This document shows positions 1 to 16,752 of a stretch of DNA of 20,556 bases, piece by piece (position 1 is the first letter of the stretch; the number at the start of each line of letters is the position of its first letter). The notes under the pieces were generated by a model. The model saw only the letters and a program-made list of their open reading frames with translations. It did no database searches and was not told where the DNA came from. The stretch comes from a virus: positions 1 through 20,556 of IMG/VR virus record IMGVR_UViG_3300006919_000605; one strand, 5' to 3'. Made by a program: the position numbers and the translations under genes.

Positions 1-735
1 AACGATCAAGAAAACCCTGAAACAGAAATTGAAATCGTGGTTCTTGTTGACGGTATCGAATGCGAAAAAAACCCTGCTCCATTGCCAAGAAATGTAAAGA
101 AAATCATCATTTCAACAGGCAGTCCTCTTTCAGGTCGTGAATTTGAAATCTTTGCTTGCTTTGAGAATGAAGAAGAAAAAGAAGCCGCAAAAGGCAAGCA
201 CTTTGATCATCACTTGAATGATTTCATGAGCGGAATCAATGAAGTCAAGAGCATGACTCCTGATCAGCAAATGCAAAAGTTGCGCGATATGGTGAAGACT
301 GATCCTGAAGACGAATTTGAAGATAAGGATGAATTGTTGATTGAAGGTGTGGACGTGATCAATAAACAAATCATTGTGATTGATCAATTGACAGCAAAGA
401 TTGAAGGCTTGAACGTCATTCTGAACAATCGTTGTCAAGCAATAGAATCACTTCATGATTCGGTTGAACTGAAGACGAAAGAGATTGAAGGCTTGAAGGC
501 TTCAAATGATTGCTTGCAAAGAATGCTTGAAGTCGCTGAAAAAGATCAAGCAAATGCACAAGAAACAATCATGTCTCAAAACGTCAACTTGAAGACAAGA
601 TCAGATCAACTTCAAGCGTGTCACAAAATGCTTGATGCAAACACAGAAACGATTGACATGCTTAGGCGAGAGAATAGTTCAATTTTGAACAAGCTGAACA
701 AGTTGAAAAATTTTGTTTACAGCATTGATGAATAA
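1..735 (+). CDS. Coiled-coil protein of unknown function, 5' end outside the window
   Basis: The reading frame is open from the first base, so the gene probably begins upstream; a GTG at 37 (232 residues) is the first possible start inside the window and is preceded by a purine-rich stretch, so it cannot be excluded. The N-terminal part has a compact mixed strand/helix look, followed by an acidic patch (EDEFEDKDELL). The second half (from about residue 100 of the GTG-started version to the end) is rich in spaced Leu/Ile with charged residues between, typical of a long coiled coil, and it suggests an oligomer. No catalytic motif is visible. It is followed 35 bp later by another unknown gene with the same type of leader. 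Function not recognised. Confidence 0.7.
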   Translation, partial: NDQENPETEIEIVVLVDGIECEKNPAPLPRNVKKIIISTGSPLSGREFEIFACFENEEEKEAAKGKHFDHHLNDFMSGINEVKSMTPDQQMQKLRDMVKTDPEDEFEDKDELLIEGVDVINKQIIVIDQLTAKIEGLNVILNNRCQAIESLHDSVELKTKEIEGLKASNDCLQRMLEVAEKDQANAQETIMSQNVNLKTRSDQLQACHKMLDANTETIDMLRRENSSILNKLNKLKNFVYSIDE

Positions 736-770
736 CAAGCAACAGAAAACAGACAAAAGAAAGAAACGAA

Positions 771-1265
771 ATGACCGATCAAAAAAAATTCAATCCACAA
801 ACGCTGAAGGCGTTATTCGCTGCTCATAAAGCAAATCAATTAGTTGAGTGCGTCGTCTACTCAACTGCAACAATGCAGTCACTGACTTTCAGGCAATCAG
901 ACGGCAAGAAGTTTGATCTTGCCCAAATTCCTCGTTGCGTCATTCAGTCTGACAGTGAAGGAAACAACGTTCACTTCTTTCTTGTCGGCCCATTCTTTTA
1001 CACCTGGACAAGAGCAGTTCTGCAAAAGATCATTTCAAAGGTGAATTCAAATGAATCAGGTTCACAATTGACCTACACTCAAGCGGAATCAATCTGCTGG
1101 TCAATTGACCGAATCATGACAGCATTTGAAACTTCAGGAATGGTTGACGCTGCTGCAATTGCTGACTTCAAAGATTTCAGCTTCTTGATCAATAAAGAGA
1201 ACTGGAAACCTGATGCTTCAGTTTTCAACAATTCACCAAGGACATTTAATAAGCTGACATGGTGA
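771..1265 (+). CDS. Hypothetical protein (164 aa)
   Basis: The ATG start follows the purine-rich leader AGAAAGAAACGAA, the same leader type seen in front of several genes in this segment, which supports both start and reality of the gene. The product is soluble with no membrane segment. It starts with a basic helix (KKFNPQTLKALFAAHKANQ), continues with a strand-rich middle, and ends with predicted helices. No known motif is recognised. It stands in a run of small phage accessory genes on the same strand. A 336-bp stretch without a convincing gene follows. Confidence 0.75.
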   Translation: MTDQKKFNPQTLKALFAAHKANQLVECVVYSTATMQSLTFRQSDGKKFDLAQIPRCVIQSDSEGNNVHFFLVGPFFYTWTRAVLQKIISKVNSNESGSQLTYTQAESICWSIDRIMTAFETSGMVDAAAIADFKDFSFLINKENWKPDASVFNNSPRTFNKLTW

Positions 1266-1393
1266 TGTCGGGCCCTACTTATTGACTTGAACTTGACTGG
1301 ACTGCTGGCAAGCGAAAGAGCCAATTGAAGGCAATTATGGGGAAGAAATGTAAACAGGCAATTAAGCGTGCAATGCGAATGACTGCAAAGGGC

Positions 1394-1422
1394 TTGACTT
1401 CCAGCGATCAAGGACATATCTT
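1394..1422 (+). promoter_or_regulatory. Candidate sigma-70 promoter
   Basis: TTGACT (1394-1399) and TATCTT (1417-1422) are separated by exactly 17 bp, giving five of six and four of six matches to the bacterial consensus. It lies in the one long gap of the window and points toward the ParB-like gene. Chance occurrence cannot be excluded. Confidence 0.35.
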
Positions 1423-1516
1423 TTCAGTCAAGTGCTTTGCATTGTCTCAACCTACTGCAACGCTTGCGTTTCTTTTGGCTTGAATTCGTCCTCAAGTCAA
1501 AGGTCCTTTCGTTTGG

Positions 1517-1577
1517 GGTGGTGGTCTTGGTCGCTTGTTTTTTCGTTGCAAGCAATCAGGATTGCCACCTTTTTTTT
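1517..1577 (+). terminator. Candidate intrinsic terminator or attenuator before the ParB-like gene
   Basis: A five-pair hairpin GCAAT-CAGG-ATTGC (1552-1565) is followed by CACC and a run of eight T (1570-1577). The CCACC at 1565-1569 can alternatively pair with GGTGG upstream (1517-1524), giving a larger but looser stem. The T run ends 24 nt before the next gene's start, so if it terminates transcription it would have to be conditional or bypassed by a phage antitermination mechanism. Confidence 0.4.
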
Positions 1578-1601
1578 ATGATCACAGAAAGAGAAATTGA
1601 C

Positions 1602-2366
1602 ATGACAGCAAAGAAGACAGCAAAGAAACCTGTTCTGAAAAAGAAACCGAAAAAGGCTTCAGCCAAGAAGACGGCAAAGCCTTCAGCATCAAATTCAAAA
1701 TCAACAAGACCAACAATCTACTACCTTGAAATTGCTGGCGAGAACTATCCTGCAATGCGCGTTGCTGACTTGCTTGGCAGGAAAGCTGAATACAATCCGC
1801 GCAAAATCTCAAAGCATGACAAGTCTGCTCTTGCTAAGTCAATGGAAAGATTCGGTACAGTTCAATCAGTTGTTTACAACGAGAGAACAAACACTGTTGT
1901 CGGTGGACACCAAAGGTTAGATGTTGCTGAAGCTTCTGGTCTTGAAATCTTCCCTGTCATGATAGTCAATCTGTCACTGATTGAAGAAAAGGCTTTAAAC
2001 CTGTCCCTGAATAGAATTTCAGGTGAATTCGTCATGCAAGGCGTTGCTTCTCTTCTGAATGACATACAAGGCATTAACAGCGACTATCTTGACTTCACTG
2101 GCTTCACAGGCGATGAAATGTCACCTTTGCTTGTGGCTCAATTTGAAGCTTCTGAAGAGAACCTTGAAGGCGTTGCAGGTGGTGAAGGTGAAATTGACGG
2201 CAAAAGCAAAGGCATGACGTTTGACAAATTTGTTGAAGTCGCACGTCAATTCGTTGATTCACCTGAACCTAATTCCATGAGCGGAAAAGGTGAAGAGTTG
2301 AAAGGTCAATTTCATGAGGCAATCAGAAATGCTGTTGACATGCTTGACGGTATGAATGAAACTTAA
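1602..2366 (+). CDS. ParB/sulfiredoxin-fold nuclease-like protein with Lys-rich N-terminal tail
   Basis: 254 residues. I chose ATG 1602 because AGAAAGAGAAA lies just upstream; the frame is open further 5' but that part reads through the terminator-like T run. Residues 1-37 are a Lys/Ala/Pro tail (MTAKKTAKKP and similar) resembling histone H1 tails, likely DNA-binding. Residues about 39-145 match the ParB N-terminal domain: the NPRKIS box at 65-70, the GGHQR motif at 101-105, and a conserved-looking ALNLSLNRISGEF helix region. The C-terminal third is acidic and unassigned. In phages this fold is found as a stand-alone nuclease or ATP/CTP-binding protein, often beside DNA methyltransferases. 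No ParA, centromere-like repeat or methyltransferase is in the window, so plasmid partition is not supported. Confidence 0.8.
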   Translation: MTAKKTAKKPVLKKKPKKASAKKTAKPSASNSKSTRPTIYYLEIAGENYPAMRVADLLGRKAEYNPRKISKHDKSALAKSMERFGTVQSVVYNERTNTVVGGHQRLDVAEASGLEIFPVMIVNLSLIEEKALNLSLNRISGEFVMQGVASLLNDIQGINSDYLDFTGFTGDEMSPLLVAQFEASEENLEGVAGGEGEIDGKSKGMTFDKFVEVARQFVDSPEPNSMSGKGEELKGQFHEAIRNAVDMLDGMNET

Positions 2367-2380
2367 TTTGTTAGACTGAA

Positions 2381-2482
2381 ATGAACAACGAAAACAAACA
2401 ATCAATCAATGAATTCAGTTGTCTTGTTGTCAACTGGATTGTCACAATTGCAATCACAATGATTGCTGTCCTGCTCTACTGA
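2381..2482 (+). CDS. 33-residue single-pass membrane microprotein
   Basis: A short frame starting ATG AAC AAC and ending TGA at 2480-2482. It begins 15 nt after the ParB-like stop, and its stop runs straight into the purine-rich leader of the next gene. The product has a polar N-terminus (MNNENKQSINEF) and then about 20 hydrophobic residues (CLVVNWIVTIAITMIAVLLY), exactly the layout of a small one-helix membrane protein. There is no strong Shine-Dalgarno (only GACTGAA upstream). Phages encode many such microproteins that act on host membrane complexes or lysis, but nothing here fixes a role. It is credible because the hydrophobic stretch fills the otherwise unexplained gap on the coding strand. 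Confidence 0.45.
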   Translation: MNNENKQSINEFSCLVVNWIVTIAITMIAVLLY

Positions 2483-2498
2483 AAGAAAGAAAGAAATC

Positions 2499-2822
2499 AT
2501 GTCAATCAACAAAAACGTCATTCAATCATTCATGGCACCTGTCACTGACAAACGCTGCACAATCATGTTGCCGCTGTCCGATGAAATGAAGCATGTTGGA
2601 ACAAGCGTTGAATTTGATCACACAGACAAACCTTCATTTTTGCAAATGTCTTATTTCGGCAAGCATGAAAGCGAAAGGACATTGAAGAGAGTTGAAATTT
2701 TCTTTGTTGTCGCTGAAGAGTTGATTGATGACAACTTGGTGATTCTTGCAACAGATAAGATTGAATCAGGTTCAAAACGTCGATATTTCATCGCCATTGA
2801 TTCAGATCAGATCACAGATTGA
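2499..2822 (+). CDS. Hypothetical protein (107 aa)
   Basis: ATG 2499 is chosen because the repeated purine leader GAAAGAAAGAAAGAAATC sits immediately before it; an upstream TTG in the same frame would include this leader as coding. The product is a small soluble protein with a Met/Phe-rich start, a central strand-rich part, and a segment with alternating hydrophobics (RVEIFFVVAEELIDDNLVIL) typical of a beta-alpha fold core. No catalytic motif is visible. The same GAAATCATG start context recurs at 3166. Unrecognised. Confidence 0.7.
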   Translation: MSINKNVIQSFMAPVTDKRCTIMLPLSDEMKHVGTSVEFDHTDKPSFLQMSYFGKHESERTLKRVEIFFVVAEELIDDNLVILATDKIESGSKRRYFIAIDSDQITD

Positions 2823-2879
2823 ATCAAGGTAATTGAAAGCAGACGAAATCAAATTTCACTTCAAAAGAAAGGTTCAGAA

Positions 2880-3134
2880 ATGAGCAACACAAAGCCACAA
2901 CTGAGAAAGAAAGTTATTGCTCTTGTCGTCAATACTTATTTGACGAATGAAGACATTGAAAGCAATCTTGCGGTCAAGCTTTGGGCGGGATCAAAGCAAG
3001 ATGACTTTCAAGCGGCGATCACGTTAGATTGTCGGAATGTTCGCGTGCTTGACAGTGACAACATTGAAGACACAAGAGCATTTGCAAAGAACAGTTTTGA
3101 AGACGCTGAAGACCCTGAAAGCGTTGAAGACTAA
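2880..3134 (+). CDS. Hypothetical small acidic protein (84 aa)
   Basis: ATG 2880 follows AAAGAAAGGTTCAGAA, which contains a fair Shine-Dalgarno (AAAGG) at about 9 nt. The N-terminus is basic (KPQLRKKVIALVVNTYLTNEDIESN) and the C-terminus strongly acidic (FEDAEDPESVED), with a helix-strand layout between. No motif is recognised. It belongs to the same run of small genes on one strand. Confidence 0.65.
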   Translation: MSNTKPQLRKKVIALVVNTYLTNEDIESNLAVKLWAGSKQDDFQAAITLDCRNVRVLDSDNIEDTRAFAKNSFEDAEDPESVED

Positions 3135-3165
3135 AACGAAAGCAAACGAAAGAAGAAACGAAATC

Positions 3166-4365
3166 ATGAACTATCAAATTGCTTGCAATTGCGGTCACAA
3201 AGGCAATCAGCACGCAGATCTATACAGTCGCGGAATTGATTCTTGTCCTGTCATTGGTGCTTGTTGTGTCCTTGGTTGCGATTGCAAAGGTTATTCTTCA
3301 ATTCCTGAAGTTGAAGTTGAGCCTGAATCCACAAATGCAATTGAAAAAGGCTTTGAAGCAATGCGGGAAAAAAGCGTTTTCATGCAGATTGACAAATCAG
3401 TTGAAGGTGAAGACGTTCATGAATTCAATGAAGTCAAAATGAAATCCTCTCTGATTTGCCTTGAATGCGATATTGAAAAGCCTGAATCATTCTTCCCTTC
3501 TCAGCGGTCAAACCTTCAAATCTGCCTTGAATGCTGTCGCATGAATGAAGCTGACAAAATCATTGAAGCTGGTGGTGGTATTCAAGACGTGAGAAGCTAC
3601 AAAGAGAATCACAAGCCAAATGGTCTTGTGATGGGTCCTCTTATGCAATCAATTGCACCTGTCAAGTCTGCTTCACCTGCTGAAGTGAAACAGTCCTGTC
3701 TTGTCTTCATTTCAGGTGGCTACAAGTCTGCAATAGTCGCTGCTCTTGCAGTAAAGAAATTTGGTGAAGAGAACGTGAAAGGCGTTTATCTGAAAGGGAC
3801 ATTCAAAAACAAGTTTCTTGATGAGCAGCAAAGGCTTGATGCTCATTTCGTTTGTGAAAGTTTGAACATTGAATTCAGTTCTGTTCAGTTGATTGAAACT
3901 GAAGTTACTGATGAGCCTGAAGAGGTTGATTTGATTTCATTGTTTGAATGCGCGTTAAAAGAAACCGATTTCACCTATGCTGCAATGGGATTTGCTCGTG
4001 ATGACTTGGCTTCACAATACGTTGAACAGGGTTTCTTTGATCCTATTGAAACCTTCCCGTTTGCACCTTTGCTCAAGCTGAAGCCTTCAGGAATTATCAA
4101 GCAGTTATTCTCTTCACCTTTGGCAATTCGTGCTGTTTGCACCTCTTCAAATTGCACGTCAACAAGAGGCGTTATTCATTGCGGTCAATGCAAAGGATGC
4201 TTGTCAAGAGCAAAAGCTTTTGCTGAATTCAACTCTTTAGCGCATAATGGGCCCTATTCAGATCCTGGTTTGACAGGAATTACTGAAGATTTGAAAAGTA
4301 AATTGCTGAAAGGTGGTTTCAAATATGTCGGAAGTGCTGAGAAGAGTAATTCACAGAGCGGTTGA
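3166..4365 (+). CDS. QueC-like PP-loop protein fused to two N-terminal zinc-binding modules
   Basis: 399 residues from ATG 3166, chosen for the AAACGAAATC leader; the frame is open upstream but overlaps the previous gene. Residues 7-40 are Cys/His-rich (CNCGH, then CPVIGACC and GCDC), a likely zinc module. Residues 98-124 form a second CxxC...CxxC zinc ribbon (C98, C101, C120, C123) of the KPxSxFF type common in phage nuclease-associated ribbons. From about residue 175 to 360 the order of motifs matches QueC (7-cyano-7-deazaguanine synthase): the PP-loop at 183-189 (SGGYKSA), a central MGFARDD segment, then the QueC zinc site (C325 or C330, C339, C342, C345 in CGQCKGC). QueC normally has SGGxDS; Lys replaces the Asp, so standard ATP chemistry is doubtful. 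It may be a divergent or repurposed enzyme of deazaguanine DNA modification. No other queuosine-pathway gene is in the window. Confidence 0.75.
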   Translation: MNYQIACNCGHKGNQHADLYSRGIDSCPVIGACCVLGCDCKGYSSIPEVEVEPESTNAIEKGFEAMREKSVFMQIDKSVEGEDVHEFNEVKMKSSLICLECDIEKPESFFPSQRSNLQICLECCRMNEADKIIEAGGGIQDVRSYKENHKPNGLVMGPLMQSIAPVKSASPAEVKQSCLVFISGGYKSAIVAALAVKKFGEENVKGVYLKGTFKNKFLDEQQRLDAHFVCESLNIEFSSVQLIETEVTDEPEEVDLISLFECALKETDFTYAAMGFARDDLASQYVEQGFFDPIETFPFAPLLKLKPSGIIKQLFSSPLAIRAVCTSSNCTSTRGVIHCGQCKGCLSRAKAFAEFNSLAHNGPYSDPGLTGITEDLKSKLLKGGFKYVGSAEKSNSQSG

Positions 4366-4701: not shown

Positions 4702-5493
4702 ATGACTGCAAAGAAGAAAGCGACAAAGAAGCGTGCTGCTAAAAAGAAGACTTCAGCAAAGAAGGCGATTCATGGCGCAACGAAGACTTCAAAGAAGGCT
4801 GCTGCTAAGAAAGGAAGTTCAAAGAAGGCTGTTGCTAAGAAGACAGCAAAGAAAACTGCAAAGAAGGCAGTGAAGAAAAGAGCAGTCAAGAAGACTTCAA
4901 AGACACAAGACAAGCGGATTGCTAAAAAAAATGCGAGGATAGAAAAGCAGCGCGTTATCAAGGCTGCTCAAGAGCGAAACGGTAAACGCTTACCTGACGG
5001 CAATGAAGGCACAAGACTTGAAGAAAAGGTTGGCATGATTCCAGTTGCCAATCTTACAGGTGATCCAGTTTATGATGATTGGATACCCTGTTTCCTTCTT
5101 GGCTTAAGACGCGAAAAAGGTGTTGCTGCTGCTTGTCGTGAAGCAGGTGTTGGTCGTTCAACTGCCTATGCTGTTCGTAAGAAATACAAAGCCTTCCGTG
5201 AAGCCTGGATTGAAGCAGTCGAGTTGAACACCGACGAATTGCAACAGACAGCAATGCACAGAGCCATTTACGGTTGGAATGAACCGTTGCTTTTCAAAGG
5301 CGAAATCAAAGCAGTCAAACGTGTCTATTCTGCTCCTTTGACTATCTTCATGCTCAAGAAAATGCGTCCTGATATCTTTGGTGACAAAGAAGAGAACAAG
5401 AATTTGACACCTGAAGAGGTTGCAGCAGCGTTGTCTGAATTTGCAAATATGGCAAGAGGGACTGTTGGTAATAAGCGGAACAAGAAAGGTTGA
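4702..5493 (+). CDS. terS: Terminase small subunit with histone-H1-like tail
   Basis: 263 residues; ATG 4702 sits nine nt after GAAGGTGA. Residues 1-85 are almost only Lys, Ala, Thr, Ser and Arg in KKA/AKK/TAKK repeats, like the C-terminal tail of histone H1 or bacterial AlgP. Residues about 125-180 hold a helix-turn-helix (GVAAACREAGVGRSTAYAVRK, 140-160, shown here as one run of the recognition region) as in the phBC6A51-type small terminases that bind the packaging start site. The C-terminal part (PDIFGDKEENKNLTPEEV) resembles the oligomer/portal-facing tail of that family. The large terminase follows directly, which supports the assignment. Usual family members lack such a long basic tail; it probably adds sequence-independent DNA contact. 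Confidence 0.88.
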   Translation: MTAKKKATKKRAAKKKTSAKKAIHGATKTSKKAAAKKGSSKKAVAKKTAKKTAKKAVKKRAVKKTSKTQDKRIAKKNARIEKQRVIKAAQERNGKRLPDGNEGTRLEEKVGMIPVANLTGDPVYDDWIPCFLLGLRREKGVAAACREAGVGRSTAYAVRKKYKAFREAWIEAVELNTDELQQTAMHRAIYGWNEPLLFKGEIKAVKRVYSAPLTIFMLKKMRPDIFGDKEENKNLTPEEVAAALSEFANMARGTVGNKRNKKG

Positions 5494-5497
5494 TTGA

Positions 5498-6919
5498 TTG
5501 TCACTAATTCCTTCAACACTTCAATCATTTGAGATTGAAGGCATTGACTTTGAATTCAAGTTTCCTGCACGCTGGTATCCTCTTGCATATCATGATGAGC
5601 AGGAAAAGCTTTGGTGTACTGAAACACGTTTTCGCGTTGTTCCTGCTGGTAGGCGATCAGGCAAGACTGAAATTGCAAAACGTTTCATTGTCATTCAGGC
5701 AATGACTTCACTTCAATCTGATGCGTGGTTTGTTTGTGCTGCTCCTGTCAACGATCAAGCTGTCCGAATTTATTGGGCTGACTTGAAAGCAATGTCACCT
5801 GCTTGGGCGGTCGCTGATATCAGTGAAGGCAAGCACACAATCACCTATGTCAATGGAGCGCAACTAACAGTGCTTGGGCTTGACAAACCTGAACGGATTG
5901 AAGGTCGTCCTCTTGACGGGATTGTTTTGGACGAATATGCGAACATGAAATCGAAAGTCTGGATTGAAAATGTTCGTCCTGCTCTTTCAACTCCTGGTCG
6001 TGTCCCTGGTTGGGCGTGGTTTATTGGCGTTCCCGAAGGTCGAAATCATTATTATAAACTTTCAAAGGCTGCTGAAGATGAGGCGCGTGAAGATTGGTCA
6101 AATCATCATTGGACAAGTCGTGGAATCGTTGATGAAAGTGAACTTGAATCAGCAAAAGGTGACTTGGACGAATTGACTTATGCTCAAGAGTATGAAGCAA
6201 GTTTCATCAACTTCAGTGGTCGTGCTTATTACACTTTCAATTCTGCAATTCATGCAGTTGAGCGGTTGACATACAATCCGAATCTTCCGATTCACCTGAA
6301 CTTTGACTTCAACGTTTCACCTGGAATTTGTTCAATTTCGCAGGAGTCACTTTATACGGGATCAATTGAAAAGGTTGACAAGTCAAAGCCAATCACCAAG
6401 TTTATCGGTGAAGTCTGGATTCCTCGTAACTCGAATACTCCCATGGTTTGCCGCAAAGCGTTGACGCTGACTTTTGAAGACGCTTACGGAAACAAACACA
6501 AGCTTGAAGATCATCTTGGTGATGTCGTTTGCTATGGCGATGCAACAGGTGGTGCGAAAGGGACAGCAAAGGTCAAGGGTTCTGATTGGGATCTGATCAA
6601 AGCTGAATTGCGTCCTGTCTTTGGGTCACGTTTGAAGATTCGCGTGCCGAAGGCAAATCCTCGTGAGCGTGTTCGGATCAACTCAATGAATGCTCGGTTC
6701 ATGTCGCACACAGGAGCGATTTGCGCGTTGGTTGATCCTCGCTGTAAACATTCAATTGAAGATTTGGACGGGACAGCACTGGTTGAAGGTGGAAGTGGTG
6801 AGCTTGACAAGAACTCTGATTCTGATCGCACACATATGACAGACGGCATGGGATACAATATCGTAAAACGTCACCCAATCAGGACAGGAATTGCGAATTT
6901 TGAAGAGTCGGTGTTGTAA
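5498..6919 (+). CDS. terL: Terminase large subunit (ATPase/nuclease)
   Basis: 473 residues, a normal length. A TTG at 5498 is used, with AAGAAAGG eight nt upstream; no ATG lies near. The ATPase half shows Walker A GRRSGKT at 51-57, Walker B IVLDE at 142-146 with the catalytic Glu146, and the coupling segment GVPEGRN at 177-183. The nuclease half has an RNase-H-like acidic triad: Asp270 in NFDFN, Asp348 in YGDATGG, and Asp449 near MTDGMG. It docks on the portal and drives genome packaging, cutting concatemers at the end. It lies 4 nt after the small terminase, so the two are probably coupled. All key residues are present, so it should be functional. Confidence 0.95.
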   Translation: MSLIPSTLQSFEIEGIDFEFKFPARWYPLAYHDEQEKLWCTETRFRVVPAGRRSGKTEIAKRFIVIQAMTSLQSDAWFVCAAPVNDQAVRIYWADLKAMSPAWAVADISEGKHTITYVNGAQLTVLGLDKPERIEGRPLDGIVLDEYANMKSKVWIENVRPALSTPGRVPGWAWFIGVPEGRNHYYKLSKAAEDEAREDWSNHHWTSRGIVDESELESAKGDLDELTYAQEYEASFINFSGRAYYTFNSAIHAVERLTYNPNLPIHLNFDFNVSPGICSISQESLYTGSIEKVDKSKPITKFIGEVWIPRNSNTPMVCRKALTLTFEDAYGNKHKLEDHLGDVVCYGDATGGAKGTAKVKGSDWDLIKAELRPVFGSRLKIRVPKANPRERVRINSMNARFMSHTGAICALVDPRCKHSIEDLDGTALVEGGSGELDKNSDSDRTHMTDGMGYNIVKRHPIRTGIANFEESVL

Positions 6920-6985: not shown

Positions 6986-7246
6986 ATGGGCGCAATTATT
7001 GGTGCGATACTGAAAGCACTGCTTGAATTCTTTGTGCCATGGTTGTCAAAGCCTGATACGACAACTGAAGCAAAGAGAGCAGAAGAGCATGACGAAATTG
7101 ACAAAGGCGTTTCAGGCTATCTTGATCGCAAGCGTGCTGACTATCTTGATGGGATGTCAAACGGGACCGAAAGTGATCTTCGTGCAGGAAGCTTTGACGA
7201 TCAACGGGAAGCCTCAAGCGGTCCTGAAATTGGTGAAGACAAGTGA
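6986..7246 (+). CDS. Small membrane-anchored protein, candidate inner-membrane spanin
   Basis: 86 residues. ATG 6986 follows GAAAGGTTAAAATC, with AAAGG at a good distance. Residues 2-20 (GAIIGAILKALLEFFVPWL) are hydrophobic but contain Lys9 and Glu13, so this is either a weak membrane anchor or an amphipathic helix. The remainder is charged and polar, rich in Glu, Asp, Lys and Arg, and likely helical then disordered. A lipoprotein gene starts inside it in the +1 frame, the arrangement of lambda Rz/Rz1. This is the main reason for suggesting an i-spanin, which would link the inner membrane to the lipoprotein. Alternatively it is a small holin-associated or unrelated membrane protein. Confidence 0.55.
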   Translation: MGAIIGAILKALLEFFVPWLSKPDTTTEAKRAEEHDEIDKGVSGYLDRKRADYLDGMSNGTESDLRAGSFDDQREASSGPEIGEDK

Positions 7247-7352
7247 AGCAGACGTTTCATATTACAATGGCAATGAATGGATTGTTGTTGAAGACGTGAT
7301 TCTTCCTGAAGGCTGGCTTGTTGTTTCGCCCAAACTTGCTGAAGGCAAGTGA
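7089..7352 (+). CDS. Lipoprotein overlapping the previous gene, candidate outer-membrane spanin
   Basis: 87 residues from ATG 7089, with AGAGAGCAGAAGAG just upstream; an in-frame start further 5' would bury the signal peptide, so 7089 is preferred. The N-terminus is a clear type II signal: basic MTKLTK, hydrophobic AFQAILIASVLTI, and lipobox LMGC with Cys23 as the lipidated residue. The mature part is about 65 residues, strand-like, with GWLVVSP near the end; it is not proline-rich as classical Rz1. The first 158 bp lie inside the preceding gene in the +1 frame, as for Rz1 in Rz, and a holin-like gene follows. An outer-membrane spanin role is therefore likely but not proven. Confidence 0.65.
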   Translation: MTKLTKAFQAILIASVLTILMGCQTGPKVIFVQEALTINGKPQAVLKLVKTSEADVSYYNGNEWIVVEDVILPEGWLVVSPKLAEGK

Positions 7353-7387
7353 ACTGAATTTGATTTTTGAATAGTCACGAACAGAAG

Positions 7388-7397
7388 AAAGGAGGTG
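7388..7397 (+). promoter_or_regulatory. Strong Shine-Dalgarno that decides the holin-like start
   Basis: AAAGGAGGTG is the closest match to the full anti-16S sequence in the window. It makes the TTG at 7404, six nt downstream, the natural start; the GTG at 7395 lies inside the ribosome site itself and is unlikely to be used. Confidence 0.7.
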
Positions 7398-7403
7398 AAC
7401 GGT

Positions 7404-7652
7404 TTGAAAACTTTTCTAAGCGTTATCAAAGCACTGCTTTCGTCAAAGAAATTTGTCGGAATGATTGCAGGTCTGATCACAACACTTGTTGCAAAGATTG
7501 GACTTGATGTTGATGACGCAACGATCACAAAGCTGACTGCAATGGTTGTCAGTTTTGTTTTAGGTCAAGGCATTGCTGATCACGGCAAAGAAGCTTCAAA
7601 GATCAATGCTGAAGCAGCAAAGGTTGCTGAAGCAGCAAAGGTTGCTTCTTGA
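7404..7652 (+). CDS. Holin-like two-helix membrane protein
   Basis: 82 residues starting at TTG 7404. A basic start (KTFLSVIKALLSSKK) is followed by two hydrophobic segments, FVGMIAGLITTLVAKIGL (about 17-34) and LTAMVVSFVLGQGIA (about 44-58), then a polar Ala/Lys/Glu tail with a short repeated KVAEAAKVA. The segment VLGQGIADHGKEA is typical of a family of small phage membrane proteins usually annotated as holin or holin-like. It lies after the candidate spanin genes and before a terminator. If it is the holin, it would permeabilise the inner membrane to time lysis. No endolysin is adjacent. Confidence 0.6.
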   Translation: MKTFLSVIKALLSSKKFVGMIAGLITTLVAKIGLDVDDATITKLTAMVVSFVLGQGIADHGKEASKINAEAAKVAEAAKVAS

Positions 7653-8375: not shown

Positions 8376-11291
8376 ATGTCAAACGGATTTTTCACGTTCG
8401 GGTTATCCGAAATCATCAACAGCAATATTGACTTGCTGTCTGACACAATCAAAGCAGTGCTGATTGACGCTGCTGATTACACTGTTGATCTTGCCAATGA
8501 TCAAGACTTTGCAGACGTGGATGTTGCTGCTCGTGTCTCTTCAACAACTCTTGCAAGCAAGTCATTAAGCGGTTCAATCTTTGATGCTGCTGACGCTGTC
8601 TTCAGTGCTGTTTCAGGTGATTCTTGTGAAGCTGTCTTGATCTACAAAGATTCAGGCGTTGAATCCTCTTCAACTCTTATTGCTTACATTGATACTGCAA
8701 TCGGATTGCCCATCACGCTTGTCGGTGATGACGTGACGCTTCAGTTTGACAACGGCATTGCAAAAATCTTTGACTATGACGACGAAACTTTCGGGTCACT
8801 GAAAGTGCTGAAACCAATTCACCACACAACAGCAATCACTGCTGCTGGTTATCAATTCACAAAGATGACAGCGAACGGTGTTGAAATTGATTTTGCTGAT
8901 CATCATATGGGTGCTGTTGGCACAATTGACGATCACTATGCTGCTCGCAATCGCAATGAATGGTCAATGCTCAACATGTTTGATGACGGCTCTGTGATTG
9001 GGCCGCTTGACATCGACTTGAAGCTTCAATTGACTGAAGGTCTTGTTGAGTTCGCGCAAAAGCTTCTCAACTTTGATATCAATTGGACTGCTGATGTTGT
9101 GAACGGTTCAATGAAGGCTGTTCCTTCGATTGAAATGGATTCATTCGTTTCTGCTTTATGGTCCTTTGATTATTGCTCAATTGAATTTCGCGTTCAACTT
9201 CCTGGCAATGGTGACACAAGCAAAGCTTTGTTGATGGTTCCAAGCGTGTCACAAAAGATTGTCAGATTTGATGACATTGATGAAATCCCAACAGCAGAAG
9301 AATTCAAATTTGTTCATCCTGGTCCTGGTGATCGCGGTGGGCAGGGCGTGCTTGATGCTGTTGATGGTATCGTTGCCTATGATGAGCCTGTCGGTGCAAT
9401 ATCACCTTCAGCAGGTGGTATTGCTAATTCACAAGCAATCTACCTATGGGACAGTGAAACGAATGAAGGCGTTCTGTTCAGAACGTTTGACAACGTTGGT
9501 CAAAACAAGATTTTCTCTGTGCAGCGTGCAGGTGATAACTTGATTGTTCGCGTTCGCTTCATTCCTCAAGATAATTCAATTGGCGTGAACAATCAGAGTG
9601 ATGAAATTCCTTTCGGCTATGGTCTCGAAATTAGACCGATGACAGGTGATTTCAATGATGCTTTGCGATATGACGCTGAAAGAAAAAAAGCTGAATCATT
9701 CTCTGCATTCGACAAACCAAGAATCAATGATCCTGCTTCAACGTTTCCTGCAAAGATGAAATCAGCAACTTGCTTTTCATGGCTCAATTCTGGTGGTTCT
9801 GGTTTTGACTTCTCAAAATTCGTTGAACAGAATCAGAGAATCAAGAAATTCTTTGCAGGTGGTTCGCATTCAGTGCTGTCAAGTTGGTACGGTTCCGGTC
9901 CTGGTGACTTGAACGAATTCGCTCCAACACACACGCCATTCAACAACAACTTTGTTGAACAGGTTGCAGCGGCAATTGCTCTTCAGCAGACGGTCATTGT
10001 TTACACTTTGCCATTTCAAGCAGACGTGATTGAAACTGACGCTGCTGCTCTTGGCATTCTTGCTGATACGGTGAAGACTCGAACAGGTTATGTTTACTCT
10101 GAAGAGCCTGATCTTGATGCTTCTGAAGAGCCAATCACAACACAACATTTGAGCGTTTCAGGGCGTTTGAAATATGCTGCTTTCACGTTTGCTGATTCGG
10201 CAAACAACGCTGAACTTGTTTCATTCATTGTTGATCAGTTTGCCTCAATTGGAATTCATGGTTTTTATTTGGACGTTGCAGGTTTTTACGGCGCATCCTG
10301 CAATGATGACCCAAATGCTGATTCTGCTGATCGCGGTTTCGGAAACAAAACGTTCACACCTGGAATTCTTTCAATCTCTGATTTGTTCCGATCTGAAAGT
10401 GATGTTGTCGATGCAATTGTTATGCACGAATGGCCTTCAGACTTCTCTGTGAAGGTTGCTGACTTCTTTGCTTGGAACAGTTTTGGTCCTGTCATTGATT
10501 CACCTTCACAGGTGTTTGGCCCTTCTGCACAATTCGGTGACAGGATCAGACACTCAACGTTCAATTCATTCGGGCAAGGTGCAAATGAAAACCTTGATTC
10601 ATTCACGATTGACGGTGTTGTTGACAAGAAAGAAATCCTGAACAGTTATTTTGCCTACTGGTTTGCAGGTGGTCACTTGATGCCTGTTTCCGCATATTGG
10701 GCTTTGCGTGATGAATATTTCATTGCTCTTGAAGGTGAAGCTGACTTTGATGATTGGTTTGAAGCAGCCATCCCACACTATGAATTCATTGCGCGTTTAT
10801 GGTGGAAGCAGGAAGCGTTGGTGCGACGATTCCATACTTCAAAACGCTTGTTTGAAATGAATGGTTCTTCTGTTGTTCGTCGGAAGGTTGATGAAGCACT
10901 TTCGCTGACTTCAACGCAATCAACCTATGTTCATTCGCAAGGCTGGTATGATGAATTCAATGACGTGCTTGGTTTCTGCTGTTCAAACTTCACGCTGACG
11001 CTTGCTGAAGGTGGTTTCTTGAATGTCACTGAAACTTGGGATGATTTCATTGACGTTAACAACTTCCCTGAATTGGGACTTGCTGCAAGGACGGTTCAAC
11101 TGCTTGATTGCGGAACAGGTGAGATTGAAACGCTTGCTGACTATGACGGTTCTGGTGGTTACACTTTCAATGTTGAAATGACTCCTGGTCGCGTTGTTTG
11201 GCTGATCATGGGTGATTATGTTCATGAGCCAGCAATACCGATTTCACTGGTCGCTGAAGATCAAACAACTGTCAACTTGTTAGGAAATTAG
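8376..11291 (+). CDS. Large chimeric virion protein with glycoside-hydrolase-like region, candidate receptor-binding or depolymerase protein
   Basis: 971 residues; ATG 8376 directly abuts the preceding stop. Residues 1-135 match a widespread phage structural domain: SDTIKAVLIDAADYTVDL, a FDAADAVFSAVSG segment and AVLIYKDSGVESSSTLIAYI, ending in LQFDNGIAKIF. Residues about 136-455 are strand-rich, lectin- or jelly-roll-like. Residues about 460-830 look like a TIM-barrel hydrolase: repeated strand-helix units, IHGFYLDVAGFYG with Asp633 and then MHEW with Glu685, the pattern of paired catalytic acids. The last 130 residues are a beta domain as in glycosidases. It probably sits on the virion and cleaves or binds a host surface glycan. 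Composition matches the phage. Catalysis is inference; a non-enzymatic binding role is possible. Confidence 0.65.
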   Translation: MSNGFFTFGLSEIINSNIDLLSDTIKAVLIDAADYTVDLANDQDFADVDVAARVSSTTLASKSLSGSIFDAADAVFSAVSGDSCEAVLIYKDSGVESSSTLIAYIDTAIGLPITLVGDDVTLQFDNGIAKIFDYDDETFGSLKVLKPIHHTTAITAAGYQFTKMTANGVEIDFADHHMGAVGTIDDHYAARNRNEWSMLNMFDDGSVIGPLDIDLKLQLTEGLVEFAQKLLNFDINWTADVVNGSMKAVPSIEMDSFVSALWSFDYCSIEFRVQLPGNGDTSKALLMVPSVSQKIVRFDDIDEIPTAEEFKFVHPGPGDRGGQGVLDAVDGIVAYDEPVGAISPSAGGIANSQAIYLWDSETNEGVLFRTFDNVGQNKIFSVQRAGDNLIVRVRFIPQDNSIGVNNQSDEIPFGYGLEIRPMTGDFNDALRYDAERKKAESFSAFDKPRINDPASTFPAKMKSATCFSWLNSGGSGFDFSKFVEQNQRIKKFFAGGSHSVLSSWYGSGPGDLNEFAPTHTPFNNNFVEQVAAAIALQQTVIVYTLPFQADVIETDAAALGILADTVKTRTGYVYSEEPDLDASEEPITTQHLSVSGRLKYAAFTFADSANNAELVSFIVDQFASIGIHGFYLDVAGFYGASCNDDPNADSADRGFGNKTFTPGILSISDLFRSESDVVDAIVMHEWPSDFSVKVADFFAWNSFGPVIDSPSQVFGPSAQFGDRIRHSTFNSFGQGANENLDSFTIDGVVDKKEILNSYFAYWFAGGHLMPVSAYWALRDEYFIALEGEADFDDWFEAAIPHYEFIARLWWKQEALVRRFHTSKRLFEMNGSSVVRRKVDEALSLTSTQSTYVHSQGWYDEFNDVLGFCCSNFTLTLAEGGFLNVTETWDDFIDVNNFPELGLAARTVQLLDCGTGEIETLADYDGSGGYTFNVEMTPGRVVWLIMGDYVHEPAIPISLVAEDQTTVNLLGN

Positions 11292-11647: not shown

Positions 11648-13234
11648 ATGATGGGTCAAAGCGTTTTCGGACCAATGGTCAAACCTGCTGTCAAGAGCGG
11701 TGAAGATGAAGTCAAGGTTGATGAAATGTGTCCTGCTTTTGATGCGATGTCAAAAGCTTGGTGCTTGATTGATGACTTGCTTGGTGGAACGTATGCAATG
11801 CGTGACGCTGGCAAAAAGTGGTTGCCGAAAGAGCCAAAAGAAGCACCTGAAACGTATGCCTTGCGTCTTGAGCGTGCAATTCTGTTTTCAGGATATGAAG
11901 ACGGTGTTGAACGTGTTGTTTCAAAACCTTTTTCAAATCCCGTGACAGTCAAGAATGAAGAGAAGTTGCCTGAAAAGGCTGCTCTGTTGCTTGACAACGC
12001 TGACTTGACTGGTCGTGATCTCACACAGTTTTTGAAGGACGTTTTCGCTGACGCTGTCAATCATGGACTGAGTCACGTTTTCGTTGATTTTGACGCTGAA
12101 GGTGCTGGTGATGCTGGTGAAGAGAAAGACAAAAACCTTCATCCATACTTCACGCACGTCAAAGCAAATCAACTGTTTTCGTGGCGTTCAAAGCGCGTGA
12201 ACGGTCGATTTGAATTGATGCAAATCAGGATCAAGGAATTCAGGACTGAGACTGTCGGCAACTACGGTGAAATTTCCGTTCCTCATGTTCGCGTTGTGAA
12301 TGCTCCTGATTTCGTTCAAGCAAACGGTCAACTTGTTCGCATTCCTGGTTCTTGGGAGCTTCATCGGCGTGATCCTGAATCGGGCAAATTCATGATTGTC
12401 AACGAAGGGAATTACACGTTTGATCGAATTCCTTTAGCGACATATTACACAGAGCGCACAGGTTTCATGACAGCGCGTCCACCAATGGAAAAACTTGCTT
12501 GGGCAAATCTTGCACACTGGCAAAGCTACGCTGATCAACGTCACCTGTTGCGATTCGTTCGCTATGCAATCCTGTTCATGTCTGGTGTGACTGATGAAGA
12601 CATGGATCAAAAGGTCACTGTCGGTCCTTCTGCTTTGTTTCGTTCAACTGCTGAAAATGCAAAGATGTCTTTTGTCGAGAACACAGGCAAAGGTGCTGAG
12701 ATTGGGCGCATTGATCTTCAGGACATTGAGGATTGGATGGAAGTTTTGGGTATGCGTCCTTTCCAAGAGCGTTCATCAAAAGCAACTGCAACAGGCAAAG
12801 CAATTGCTGAAGAGGGGATGAACGCTGACATCAAGTTGTGGATTCGTGGACTTGAAACGTTCGGTGATGAAATCTTTGCAATGGCTGCTGCTTGGAATAA
12901 AGATGTCATTCCTGAAGATGTTTCAGTTGATGTCTTTGATGATTTCGCTGTCGGTCTGCACGCTTCAGAAGACGTGAAGGCAATCACACTTTTGCGTGAC
13001 AAGCGAATGATCACGAACAAGCTTGCTCTTGAAGAGTTGAAAAGGCGTGGTTTGCTTGGTGAAGACGTGAACCCTGAAAACGAAACACAGGCTGTTCTTG
13101 ATGAAGGTCCTGACTTGCCGACGTTTGGTGATGATGACATTGAAGATGACAATGAAGACGTGAAGCCTGAAGACAAGCCTGAAAAGAAGGACAAAGGCAA
13201 AGACAGGCCTGAAGAAAAGAATAAGACTGAATGA
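11648..13234 (+). CDS. Portal protein (DUF4055-like)
   Basis: 528 residues. ATG 11648 (an ATG also at 11651) follows AGGGGCTGA. The N-terminal region has ETYALRLERAILFSGYEDGV, typical of the DUF4055 portal group. A central region with HVKANQLFSWRSKRVNG and WELHRRDPESGKF fits the wing and stem, and the helical part ERSSKATATGKAIAEEGMNA resembles the conserved portal segment near the channel. The C-terminal 60 residues are a charged, Asp/Glu/Lys/Pro-rich disordered tail. The portal forms the dodecameric DNA gate at one capsid vertex and binds terminase. It is followed by the MuF gene with a four-base ATGA overlap, the standard portal-MuF order. Confidence 0.85.
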   Translation: MMGQSVFGPMVKPAVKSGEDEVKVDEMCPAFDAMSKAWCLIDDLLGGTYAMRDAGKKWLPKEPKEAPETYALRLERAILFSGYEDGVERVVSKPFSNPVTVKNEEKLPEKAALLLDNADLTGRDLTQFLKDVFADAVNHGLSHVFVDFDAEGAGDAGEEKDKNLHPYFTHVKANQLFSWRSKRVNGRFELMQIRIKEFRTETVGNYGEISVPHVRVVNAPDFVQANGQLVRIPGSWELHRRDPESGKFMIVNEGNYTFDRIPLATYYTERTGFMTARPPMEKLAWANLAHWQSYADQRHLLRFVRYAILFMSGVTDEDMDQKVTVGPSALFRSTAENAKMSFVENTGKGAEIGRIDLQDIEDWMEVLGMRPFQERSSKATATGKAIAEEGMNADIKLWIRGLETFGDEIFAMAAAWNKDVIPEDVSVDVFDDFAVGLHASEDVKAITLLRDKRMITNKLALEELKRRGLLGEDVNPENETQAVLDEGPDLPTFGDDDIEDDNEDVKPEDKPEKKDKGKDRPEEKNKTE

Positions 13235-15600
13235 CTGTCAACGCGAATCTTCAAGACGCTGCAATCAGGCACGCTTTGCTTTTGGAAGGTTTCAAAGCAG
13301 GTGAAGTTGCCAAGATTCAGAAGTTTCTGAAGAACGATTTGTTTCCTGATCTTGCTGATACTGTCAGAAGGCGACTATCAAGGATTTCGCTTGCTGGCGG
13401 TCTTGATTCTGGTCCCTGGCGAACAAAGCGTTATCAAGACATGCTGTCTTCAATTGATCGAATGATGGGGAATGCTTTCAAAAAGGTGAGTGCTGACAGC
13501 GTTGATTCAATGAACAAGTTTGCTTTGTCTGAAGAACGTTTTCAGCGTGCTTCAATTGATCGCGCATTGCCTTTTGAGTCGATAACACGGGCTCCGAGTC
13601 CTGCAACGCTGAAGGCGGTCACAACAGCGCGTCCATTTCAGGGGAAGCACTTAAAGGACTGGTGGAAAAACGTTGATCAGCATGGACGGGACATAATCAA
13701 GCGACAGCTTTCAATTGGTATTGCTTCAGGTGAAGGGATTGAAACGATTGTGAAGCGGTTGACGGGCAATGCTCGTTCTTCTTTTGGTCCTGGCGCATTC
13801 AAGACGATTCAGCGCAACGCAAGAGTTGTCACAAGAACTGCAGTGACTCATGTTTCGAATGCAGCGCGTGAAGCGACATTCAAGGCAAATGAAAGCGTGA
13901 TCAAGTCGGTCAAGTTTGTTGCAACGCTTGACGCAAGGACAACTGACATTTGTGCTTCAATTGATGGCAGGACGTTTGCAATCAATTCGGGTCCTCGTCC
14001 ACCTATGCACCATCAATGCAGGTCAACGATTGTTCCAATCACGAAATCGTTGCAGCAGATCGTTGATGAAAGCAAAGGGATCAAAAATAAGGTTGATAAG
14101 TCTTCAGAGTCAATCAAATCAACAAGGGCCGAATTGCGCGGTGAAGTCCCTGCAAGTCAAACCTATGGTCCTTGGCTGAAAGGTCAACCTAAAGAAATTC
14201 AAGACTTTGCTCTTGGTAAGAAGCGTGCTGATCTCTTCAGGCGTGGTCATGTTGATATTCGCCAATTCACTGATAGGAAGTTTCAGCCTTTGACGTTGCA
14301 GGAGCTTGAGCAGGTCGAACGTGACATGCTTAGGCGTGCAAGTGGCAAGAAGGTTGTGAAGAAGAAAACTGCAATCAAGAAGACTGCAAGCAAAATTGAA
14401 CCAACAGCAAGACAATCTGCAAGATCATTGAGTGGCATTGAAGAAACTGCTGAAGAGGTTCGTGAAAAGCTTTTTGAAACTGCACGTCAACCAATCAAAA
14501 AAGATTCATTGATTGGGCGTGAAATATTGAAAGACATTGAAGGTCTCGAATTTCGTATTGCAAAGCTTGAGAAAATCAACATGACTCATGTTTCAATGTA
14601 TAAGGATGCAGTGAAAAAAGTGAAGCAGTTGAAGGCTTCATTCAGCAAAGGCTTCATTGATGACTTACCAACAGGCTTTGACGTTCAAATAACTTCAGGG
14701 CAGCGCAAAGCTGCAATGGAAGCTTTGGGGGTGAAGAACAAAGCAAAAGTGAAGATGGAATTTGCTTCAACAAACAAATTCAAGCGGACAATGCGGAATG
14801 ATGCAATCGGTGAAATGCGGCAAAGTGAAGCTTGGTTTGGTGACAAGCTTGAAATCCCTGCAAGATTGAATGAAGCAGAAGATTTTCTTTCTTCAGTGAT
14901 TTCAAAGAAGCTGATTGATGAGGATTTCTTGATTCGCGTTGGTCGATCACTTGATGATAATGGGAACCCTGCAAGTAGAGCCTATGCAAAAGTCGGTTCA
15001 ATTCATATCAGCAACAAGTCTGCAACAAGGACGATTGTGCATGAATTCACCCACAACGTTGAATTCAAATCATTGACAGAAAAGGCGCGTGATTTTCTCA
15101 AGAAGCGTGCCTTGAGGAGTGCAAAGAAGCTTGAAGCTGTTGACGATGACATGATTTTCTTGCTCAAAGAAAAAGCTGATCTTGACAAGCAGCTAAAGAA
15201 GCACAAAGCAAGGCTGAAAAAGATTGACAAGGAAATTGAAGCCGCTGGTGGTGAAGCCAAGATGACAGGTCCTCAAAGCACTGAGAGATTGCGTGCAAGA
15301 CAGGGTGTGAAGAACGTTGAAGAGGAATTGCGTTGGAACAGATCAGGAACAGAATACAGACGATCAGAGTTAAGAGAGCCACGAAAGCTTGGTGATATCT
15401 TCCCGAATAAAAATTACAGTGCTGATGAACGTGCTTGGGAAGATGACTTTTTCAGTGCTTACGCTGGAAAAGATTATGGTGAAGCTGCAACAGAGATTCT
15501 TTCGATGGGTGCAGAATTTCTTTATTCAAATCCCTATGAATTTGCTCGTGTTGATCCTGAATACTTTGATTTCATTGTGAACATTTTGCGAGGGAATTAG
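13231..15600 (+). CDS. MuF-type head morphogenesis protein fused to a zinc-metallopeptidase-like domain
   Basis: 789 residues; its ATG overlaps the portal stop (ATGA). Residues about 160-275 are the SPP1 gp7/Mu gpF domain: helical LSIGIASGEGIETIVKRLTG, ARVVTRTAVTHVSNAAREAT, then DARTTDICASIDGRTF and the signature PPMHHQCRST (His260, His261, Cys263). Residues about 368-400 form a Lys/Ala-rich linker. From about residue 490 there is a second globular unit with HEFTH at 604-608, the zincin HExxH motif, preceded by the usual TIVHEFTH context; EAATEILSMG (Glu751, Glu755) could supply the third zinc ligand. A coiled coil (about 645-690) lies between. MuF proteins are packaged in small numbers and are known carriers of C-terminal toxin or peptidase domains, so an injected protease is plausible. 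Confidence 0.8.
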   Translation: MTVNANLQDAAIRHALLLEGFKAGEVAKIQKFLKNDLFPDLADTVRRRLSRISLAGGLDSGPWRTKRYQDMLSSIDRMMGNAFKKVSADSVDSMNKFALSEERFQRASIDRALPFESITRAPSPATLKAVTTARPFQGKHLKDWWKNVDQHGRDIIKRQLSIGIASGEGIETIVKRLTGNARSSFGPGAFKTIQRNARVVTRTAVTHVSNAAREATFKANESVIKSVKFVATLDARTTDICASIDGRTFAINSGPRPPMHHQCRSTIVPITKSLQQIVDESKGIKNKVDKSSESIKSTRAELRGEVPASQTYGPWLKGQPKEIQDFALGKKRADLFRRGHVDIRQFTDRKFQPLTLQELEQVERDMLRRASGKKVVKKKTAIKKTASKIEPTARQSARSLSGIEETAEEVREKLFETARQPIKKDSLIGREILKDIEGLEFRIAKLEKINMTHVSMYKDAVKKVKQLKASFSKGFIDDLPTGFDVQITSGQRKAAMEALGVKNKAKVKMEFASTNKFKRTMRNDAIGEMRQSEAWFGDKLEIPARLNEAEDFLSSVISKKLIDEDFLIRVGRSLDDNGNPASRAYAKVGSIHISNKSATRTIVHEFTHNVEFKSLTEKARDFLKKRALRSAKKLEAVDDDMIFLLKEKADLDKQLKKHKARLKKIDKEIEAAGGEAKMTGPQSTERLRARQGVKNVEEELRWNRSGTEYRRSELREPRKLGDIFPNKNYSADERAWEDDFFSAYAGKDYGEAATEILSMGAEFLYSNPYEFARVDPEYFDFIVNILRGN

Positions 15601-15602
15601 AA

Positions 15603-15854
15603 ATGAAACTTGTGTTCAAAGAAGGCGAATTGAGAATCAGAAACGGTGTTTTTTCAGACAACGTTGACGGTTCACTTGCAGCAAATGCTGAAGTGATTTA
15701 TGAAGCAATTGAAGGCAATGGTTTCTCTGTTCCTGGTTCTGATCCTGATCCTGATCTTTCAACAATGCAGATTCTGTCTGCTCAATGGGGCGGCAAGCTT
15801 GAGGTTCCAAAGAACAGACCTAAACAGATTGCGCCGAAAGATGCTGTCAATTGA
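15603..15854 (+). CDS. Hypothetical small protein between MuF and scaffold (83 aa)
   Basis: ATG 15603 is two bases after the MuF stop, so it is likely coupled; the upstream GAGGGAATTAGAA is a fair ribosome site. The N-terminus is strand-like (KLVFKEGELRIRNGVFS), followed by a helix and an acidic Pro-containing linker (SDPDPDLS), then a basic end (PKNRPKQIAPKD). It is too short for a known head protein I could name. Its position suggests a role in head assembly or decoration, which is inference only. Confidence 0.6.
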   Translation: MKLVFKEGELRIRNGVFSDNVDGSLAANAEVIYEAIEGNGFSVPGSDPDPDLSTMQILSAQWGGKLEVPKNRPKQIAPKDAVN

Positions 15855-15858
15855 TTTC

Positions 15859-15888
15859 TTGACTTTTGCTTGCTTTTTTGCTTATCTG
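15859..15888 (+). promoter_or_regulatory. Weak candidate promoter before the scaffold gene
   Basis: TTGACT (15859-15864) and TATCTG (15883-15888), 18 bp apart, lie in a 97-bp gap in front of scaffold and capsid genes, where phages often add promoter strength. The -10 match is poor (three of six), so it is tentative. The -35/-10 words resemble those at 1394-1422. Confidence 0.25.
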
Positions 15889-15951
15889 ATTGTATGAAGC
15901 CTGAAAAGGCAAAGAAAAAGGTCACGAAAACCTGAAAGAGAACTTGAACAA

Positions 15952-16752
15952 ATGGCATTGAAAGCAATTGTTGACGCTGAAGCGTTTGAAGCACTGTCTG
16001 AAGATTTTCAGGCAGAATACAAAAAGCAAGCGGACGGTTCTTACCTGCTTGACGTTTCTGAAGCTGGTGGTCTGAAACTTGAGAACGTTTCAGGCTTGCG
16101 GTCTGCTCTTGAATCAGAGCGTGAAAACTTCCGCAATGCAAAGAAGCTTGCTGATTCGTTCGGTGACATGTCACCTGCTGAAGTCAAAGCGTTGGTCAAG
16201 AAGGCGAAACAGCTTGAAGGCAATGTTTCGGAAACAGAAAAGTTCAAGCAAGCACTTTCTGAGCGGGAAGCACAGATCGTTGCCAAGCATGAAAAAGAAT
16301 TGAATGCAGAGCGTGATAAAAATGGGATGTTTGAATCACAACTTGAAAAGCATTTGATTGAATCGAAAGCCGTTGCAGCGATCAATGAACATGGTGGGAA
16401 TGTGAAGCTTCTTTTGCTTCATGTTCGGTCGTCGATGAAAATGGTTCGGAATGATGACGGTGATTTCGTTGCACAGGTTGTCAATGAAAGCGGTGTTCCT
16501 CGTATCACTGAGAAATCAGGTTCACAGGATGCAATGGGTATTTCAGAACTGGTTGCTTCAATGAAGACAACTGATGATTTCAGTCGGGCTTTCGCGGGAA
16601 GCGGAAACAAGGGAACAGGTTCACATTCTGATGACAACGATAGCAACAGCAATCAGAGCGGTCCCAAAACACGGATTTCGCGTTCTGATCAAGAGGCTAT
16701 CAACGCAAACTTTGAGGCAATCGCGTCGGGTGACGTGATTGTAGTTGATTAG
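15952..16752 (+). CDS. Capsid scaffolding protein
   Basis: 266 residues from ATG 15952; the leader contains AAAGAGAAC. The product is highly charged and mostly helical: an N-terminal MALKAIVDAEAFEALSEDF, the segment GLKLENVSGLRSALESERE, then a coiled coil from about 45 to 125 rich in Lys and Glu. A flexible Gly/Ser/Asn/Asp stretch (NKGTGSHSDDNDSNSNQSG) precedes a short basic C-terminal helix (KTRISRSDQEAI), the type of element that contacts coat protein in other scaffolds. It comes directly before the capsid gene, the canonical place. It guides procapsid assembly and is then lost or cleaved; no protease gene of the classic head type is adjacent. Confidence 0.85.
   Translation: MALKAIVDAEAFEALSEDFQAEYKKQADGSYLLDVSEAGGLKLENVSGLRSALESERENFRNAKKLADSFGDMSPAEVKALVKKAKQLEGNVSETEKFKQALSEREAQIVAKHEKELNAERDKNGMFESQLEKHLIESKAVAAINEHGGNVKLLLLHVRSSMKMVRNDDGDFVAQVVNESGVPRITEKSGSQDAMGISELVASMKTTDDFSRAFAGSGNKGTGSHSDDNDSNSNQSGPKTRISRSDQEAINANFEAIASGDVIVVD

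Follow-up and report, generated by a model that had tools for sequence, protein, structure and literature searches.

A phage QueC-like protein with a lysine in its PP-loop and two cysteine-rich modules ahead of the QueC-like domain

Canonical QueC (PF06508 cluster 1; E. coli QueC; PDB 3BL5 and 2PG3) combines a PP-loop fold carrying SGG..S with a published zinc signature, C-x8-C-x2-C-x2-C (PMC13329287), and the E. coli mutants Y35A, R99A and Y189A are inactive (PMC13329287). The SGGxDS form of the PP-loop is described as strictly conserved in QatC, and the other QueC clusters analysed are said to preserve it too (PMC13329287); its aspartate sits at the ATP phosphates in the QatC structure (PMC13279940). 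QatC (qatABCD) and Cap9 (type IV CBASS) are QueC-fold proteins recruited to other roles, which are still required and active in their systems with rebuilt substrate sites (PMC13279940, PMC13329287). Finally, Hutinet and colleagues (PMC6884629) noted that the QueC "singletons" of phages such as SP-15 and SFP10 may be functionally unrelated N-type ATP-pyrophosphatases. The SFP10-type protein (15636-16298 in our record L129) occurs in 209 phage records, mostly of Salmonella and Escherichia phages, with WSGGVDS and NGDDA conserved.

The window, that is, the whole stretch of DNA analysed here, is a linear IMG/VR virus record of 20,556 bases, a tailed-phage fragment whose genome is incomplete. A preliminary description, made from the letters of the sequence, had singled out an ORF at 3166-4365 as a QueC-like protein with an altered PP-loop and had related it to 7-deazaguanine DNA modification or to another role derived from QueC; the ORF, its coordinates and its motifs are confirmed in the sequence. 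The relevant features are as follows.

1596..2366, plus strand: ParB-type protein, upstream neighbour (phrog_620, 1.4e-27; ParB_N at E 7e-4, below cut-off)
3166..4365, plus strand: gene for the QueC-like protein (399 aa and stop; coding GC pattern; 3' third matched at 100% identity by a second assembly, L002)
3184..3285, plus strand: front Cys/His module 1, residues 7-40 (CNCGHKGNQH, C27, C33, C34, C38, C40; FAM221 below cut-off)
3457..3537, plus strand: front Cys module 2, residues 98-124, zinc-ribbon-like by sequence only (CLEC ... CLECC)
3691..4233, plus strand: PP-loop/QueC-like domain, residues 176-356 (Pfam NAD_synthase at 176-244, QueC at 300-355; hhalign; weak structural support)
3712..3729, plus strand: altered PP-loop SGGYKS, residues 183-188 (Lys187 for Asp; D13 to K187 in three alignments)
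4153..4209, plus strand: QueC zinc signature C330-x8-C339-x2-C342-x2-C345 and R348 (sequence, three alignments)
4702..5493, plus strand: terminase small subunit, downstream neighbour
5498..6919, plus strand: terminase large subunit (TerL), downstream neighbour (PHROGs; phrog_4044 and phrog_2 for the terminase pair)

The codon-position GC of the ORF (0.50/0.39/0.34) fits a coding gene. An alternative in-frame ATG upstream, at 3037, would give 442 aa; we kept the start at 3166 because the upstream one overlaps the preceding gene and because a purine-rich AAAGAAGAAACGAAATC stretch, resembling the stretch before the gene at 2499, precedes the ATG at 3166. Exact-peptide scans of viral contigs returned only the identical fragment L002, which is 100% identical to the protein and covers residues 287-399 only, so that K187 and the two front modules are seen in a single contig. 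An assembly frameshift is an unlikely source of Lys187, because the reading frame stays open before and after this codon, AAG, which is two changes away from both Asp codons.

By profile comparison, the homology of the C-terminal half to QueC is above chance. Pfam QueC (PF06508) scores 25.3 bits on the full-length protein and 27.3 bits on the isolated domain, above the cut-off of 22, in two stretches of which the stronger lies at the zinc end; the six-frame score of 18 bits falls under this cut-off because one stretch alone was scored. The isolated domain also passes the thresholds of NAD_synthase (32.0 bits, cut-off 21) and of the MnmA HUP domain (21.5 bits, cut-off 20.6), both matches spanning the PP-loop part. 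The protein falls far short of the curated NCBIfam cut-offs for NAD synthetase, LarE and MnmA. These N-type ATP-pyrophosphatases, whose profiles and folds the PP-loop part matches, lack the four-Cys signature of QueC. With hhalign, five QueCs were matched at 95.5% probability over 75 columns of the C-terminus. A repeat with a separate alignment conversion reached a score of 50.1, where 60 shuffles gave at most 21.5 and the reversed sequence 23.9; these matches span the C-terminal 63-75 columns only. The QueC/PP-loop-like half first proposed is thus upheld, and in the broad sense of PF06508 the protein belongs to the QueC family by its profile score and its C-x8-CxxCxxC, while departing from it at SGGxDS.

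AlphaFold2 gave a weak model from five sequences (mean pLDDT 48.6, pTM 0.37, with blocks of about 50-72 across the first 80 residues) and a mean pLDDT of 30 from the single sequence. Foldseek ranked NAD synthetases first against PDB, followed by LarE, and proteins annotated as QueC first against viral models. VIA-align 2, which re-aligns Foldseek candidates only, placed B. subtilis QueC (3BL5) on top, with a Z of 9.7 and an rmsd of 5.1 over 155 residues; next by Z came Erwinia QueC (8.8), LarE (8.7), MnmA (7.5) and Cap9 (7.2). Middling Z scores are common in structural alignment, and the input alignment of the model contained QueCs, which bears on this ranking; we therefore take the structural alignment of the predicted fold to QueC as support, not proof.

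Residues were mapped, in E. coli QueC numbering, through three alignments of our protein to a set of nine QueCs or QueC-like proteins; between its residues 240 and 300 the alignment is unreliable. PP-loop residues S9, G10, G11 and S14 are kept and all three alignments agree on D13 to K187, so the lysine seen where an aspartate is expected is there. We did not take GGYKS for a Walker-A motif, because the profile context is that of a PP-loop and the residue before the lysine is not a glycine. Cysteines stand at 325, 330, 339, 342 and 345 in the C-terminal part; E. coli C188, C197, C200 and C203 correspond to C330, C339, C342 and C345, and R206 to R348, in the three alignments. The four-Cys zinc site is hence as described, and the choice that the preliminary description had left between C325 and C330 falls on C330, the counterpart of C188 in every alignment. 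The pattern C-x8-C-x2-C-x2-C arises in 0.2% of shuffles of this protein.

Apart from this signature and the arginine that follows it, and the SGG..S shared with canonical QueC (which also gives the best structural alignment of the weak model), the differences accumulate. Y189 is replaced by T331 in the three alignments, none of which puts a Tyr or an Arg at the places of Y35 (YxQxHxxE) and R99 (VPxRN), and 175 extra residues carrying two Cys modules lie at the N-terminus. The substrate motif YPDC (Y131, D133) does not occur in the protein, but the counterparts of Y131, D133 and K165 vary between alignments. Judged from these residues, canonical preQ0 synthesis is very unlikely and ordinary ATP-pyrophosphatase chemistry doubtful, because the aspartate is replaced by K187 and equivalents of Y35, R99 and Y189 are missing. 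A normal preQ0 synthase serving DNA modification, its remaining pathway genes lying outside the fragment, would account for the QueC zinc signature and the Pfam match and would suit an incomplete genome, but the protein lacks several residues that QueC needs and has a Lys for the PP-loop Asp, so that we consider it highly improbable.

We think that the protein is a diverged QueC-fold accessory protein that would lack preQ0 activity and work by binding (probability about 0.5). The change from Asp to Lys and the lost QueC residues would most likely abolish or strongly alter the ATP-pyrophosphatase step, the domain would probably bind a nucleotide, a nucleic acid or a partner protein, and the two front Cys modules would act as docking elements. 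The possibility, raised earlier, that the protein derives from QueC and plays a different part is supported. Several points speak against this reading: the SGG..S scaffold is intact, and the lysine could itself bind phosphate, so that the protein may be active; the record is a fragment, and pathway genes could be elsewhere; the alignment is unreliable over residues 240 to 300; K187 comes from one assembly, and no homologue was found that would show selection on the lysine or the modules.

The two Cys-rich stretches reported ahead of the QueC-like half are indeed present. Module 1 has cysteines at 7, 9, 27, 33, 34, 38 and 40 and matches FAM221 at 20.3 bits (E 5e-4), under the cut-off of 25; module 2 has them at 98, 101, 120, 123 and 124, with no match to a Pfam family and no significant match in phages. 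The front modules alone likewise gave no significant phage match at the sensitivity used, and simple patterns written for them were absent from the loci scanned with them. CxxC-x15-25-CxxC occurs in 1.8% of shuffles and seven cysteines within 34 aa in 3.7%; that the last figure is modest reflects the high Cys content of the protein as a whole (5.0% against 0.74% in its neighbours). Zinc or nucleic-acid binding by these modules is putative, being read from their Cys spacing.

By circumstance, the closest known kind is that of the singleton QueC-like N-type ATP-pyrophosphatases of phages, for example the Salmonella phage SFP10 gene at 15636-16298 (phrog_1550; PMC6884629), which is also a lone phage gene without a cassette, has also lost the QueC substrate motifs and also carries a Cys site at its C-terminus. 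Unlike our protein, the SFP10 type keeps the aspartate (SGGVDS) and has no front Cys modules. Profile alignment of the two with hhalign gave 83% over the domain in one build and 9% in another, and BLASTP gave nothing, so that direct homology, as far as these comparisons go, is uncertain.

QatC and Cap9 offer the other comparison. QatC is likewise extended at its N-terminus, although its extension is an alpha/beta sheet (PMC13279940) where ours consists of Cys modules, and its zinc spacing is C-x19-CGxCxxRR where ours is x8; the QueC domain of Cap9 is similarly short. Both retain SGGxDS, whereas the protein described here has SGGYKS. PADLOC returned no match for it, and neither qatA, qatB or qatD neighbours among the annotated ORFs nor a CD-NTase-like gene (the Cap9 partner) among the ORFs matched to families were found.

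These systems inspire two alternatives. In the first, the protein would be an active enzyme of changed specificity, whose rebuilt site adenylates a carboxylate or similar group, the target perhaps being a macromolecule held on the front Cys modules, by analogy with Cap9 and its protein N-terminus. SGG..S and the zinc site are retained, and QatC and Cap9 are active despite rebuilt substrate sites (PMC13279940, PMC13329287); on the other hand, both are reported to keep the PP-loop Asp that is a Lys here, and the neighbouring ORFs show neither a partner gene nor an MG(G/T)S substrate at an N-terminus. We regard this as unlikely, though it ranks second after the binding protein. In the second, the protein would be a decoy or inhibitor of QatC or Cap9, binding a partner or substrate without reacting; such defences exist (PMC13279940) and an inactive phage QueC-fold protein would suit the part, which is reasoning by inference only, but with no QatC- or Cap9-specific feature found and no PADLOC match this is the least credible of the readings considered.

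Turning to the neighbourhood, the genes downstream of the QueC-like gene encode terminase, portal, head morphogenesis, scaffold, major head and connector proteins. Between terminase and portal there is a possible lysis module (6986-7652), with two ORFs that overlap, 6986-7246 and 7023-7352 (the second encodes a lipobox-like LTILMGCQ), and a holin-like gene at 7395-7652 (phrog_9987); the same interval holds a protein of 971 aa (8376-11291), of which only the first 135 residues match a family, phrog_644, with no function assigned, while the remainder has none in Pfam. The Mu-F-like head morphogenesis protein (13231-15600, 789 aa) has a segment at about 700-788 that separately matches other PHROGs, with no function assigned. 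Among the genes near the QueC-like one, the ParB-type gene alone has matches in the loci of TerL relatives; ParB-type genes occur in only 3 of these loci, and no link was found for a pairing of ParB with a PP-loop protein.

Family searches found no FolE, QueD, radical-SAM or TGT member in the 20,556-base record, and PHROGs searches of the main ORFs no 7-deazaguanine pathway gene. The absence of dpdA rests on PHROGs, because PF01702 misses DpdA, being negative even for L020, a relative that has a dpdA-like gene end (see below). The search for folE, queD, queE and dpdA homologues, extending over the 20.5-kb fragment, was thus negative. From its sequence the protein is not a canonical QueC, because Y35, R99 and Y189 have no equivalents and the window has no pathway genes. 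The initial interpretation is in this respect supported in part: the altered QueC-like domain holds, and the role in 7-deazaguanine DNA modification is not supported, with these four genes missing from the fragment and residues for preQ0 synthesis missing from the protein.

One relative does count in favour of the broader modification idea. L020 (IMGVR_UViG_3300008218_001548), whose TerL is 47% identical to that of the window, carries at 2-3320 a dpdA-like gene end, a canonical queC, queD, queE and folE directly before its terminase genes. The shared pre-terminase position, at this level of TerL identity, is weak evidence, suggestive but not proof, that the QueC-like gene may derive from such a cassette. 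It could then be a remnant, an inherited queC that is decaying or was recently recruited, the other genes having been lost, and L095 (IMGVR_UViG_3300037010_002253) fits this as well, having at 2693-4121 a canonical QueC-family gene and, adjacent to it, a diverged one (SGGIDS, without YPDC), a pair that a single gene separates from a terminase-like gene. However, QueC, together with QueD, occurs in just 1 of the 36 TerL-relative records (L020), many of them short fragments; 399 open codons of ordinary coding composition and added Cys modules are unlike decay; and the QueC of L020 has no tblastn match to our protein. We find a remnant improbable.

Searches for closer homologues, of limited sensitivity, found none sharing the lysine or either module, let alone the lysine with both front modules. 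In phages and plasmids, tblastn gave only weak PP-loop or QueC matches (E 0.05 or worse); closer reading of six of them identified NAD synthases, one PAPS-reductase-like protein and one QueC. DNA-pattern scans that looked for CGxCxxCxxR at a distance of 144-154 aa behind GG-x-Lys-[Ser-like] yielded 28 stretches, all judged chance by their frame, stops or missing residues; they demanded GGT, GGA or GGC as first Gly codon as well as this spacing, so that Lys-type relatives can escape them. Scans of genome contigs gave 592 and 21 stretches and no relative.

As a long shot, we suggest that the protein might represent a new QueC-fold branch, in which a lysine replaces the PP-loop aspartate and fused Cys modules hold nucleic acid or protein, and which would be a new ATP-dependent macromolecule-modifying enzyme or, on the phage's side, a mimic of the QueC-family defence proteins. 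In bacterial defence, QueC-fold proteins were recently shown to have left base synthesis and taken up the modification of proteins. For phage annotation, the label "QueC-like" should be treated with caution before it is taken as a sign of modified DNA. Finally, since the QueC clusters studied to date are reported to retain the PP-loop aspartate, a phage member that lacks it and is fused to Cys modules would mark either a protein that has given up catalysis for binding or an active site of an unusual kind.
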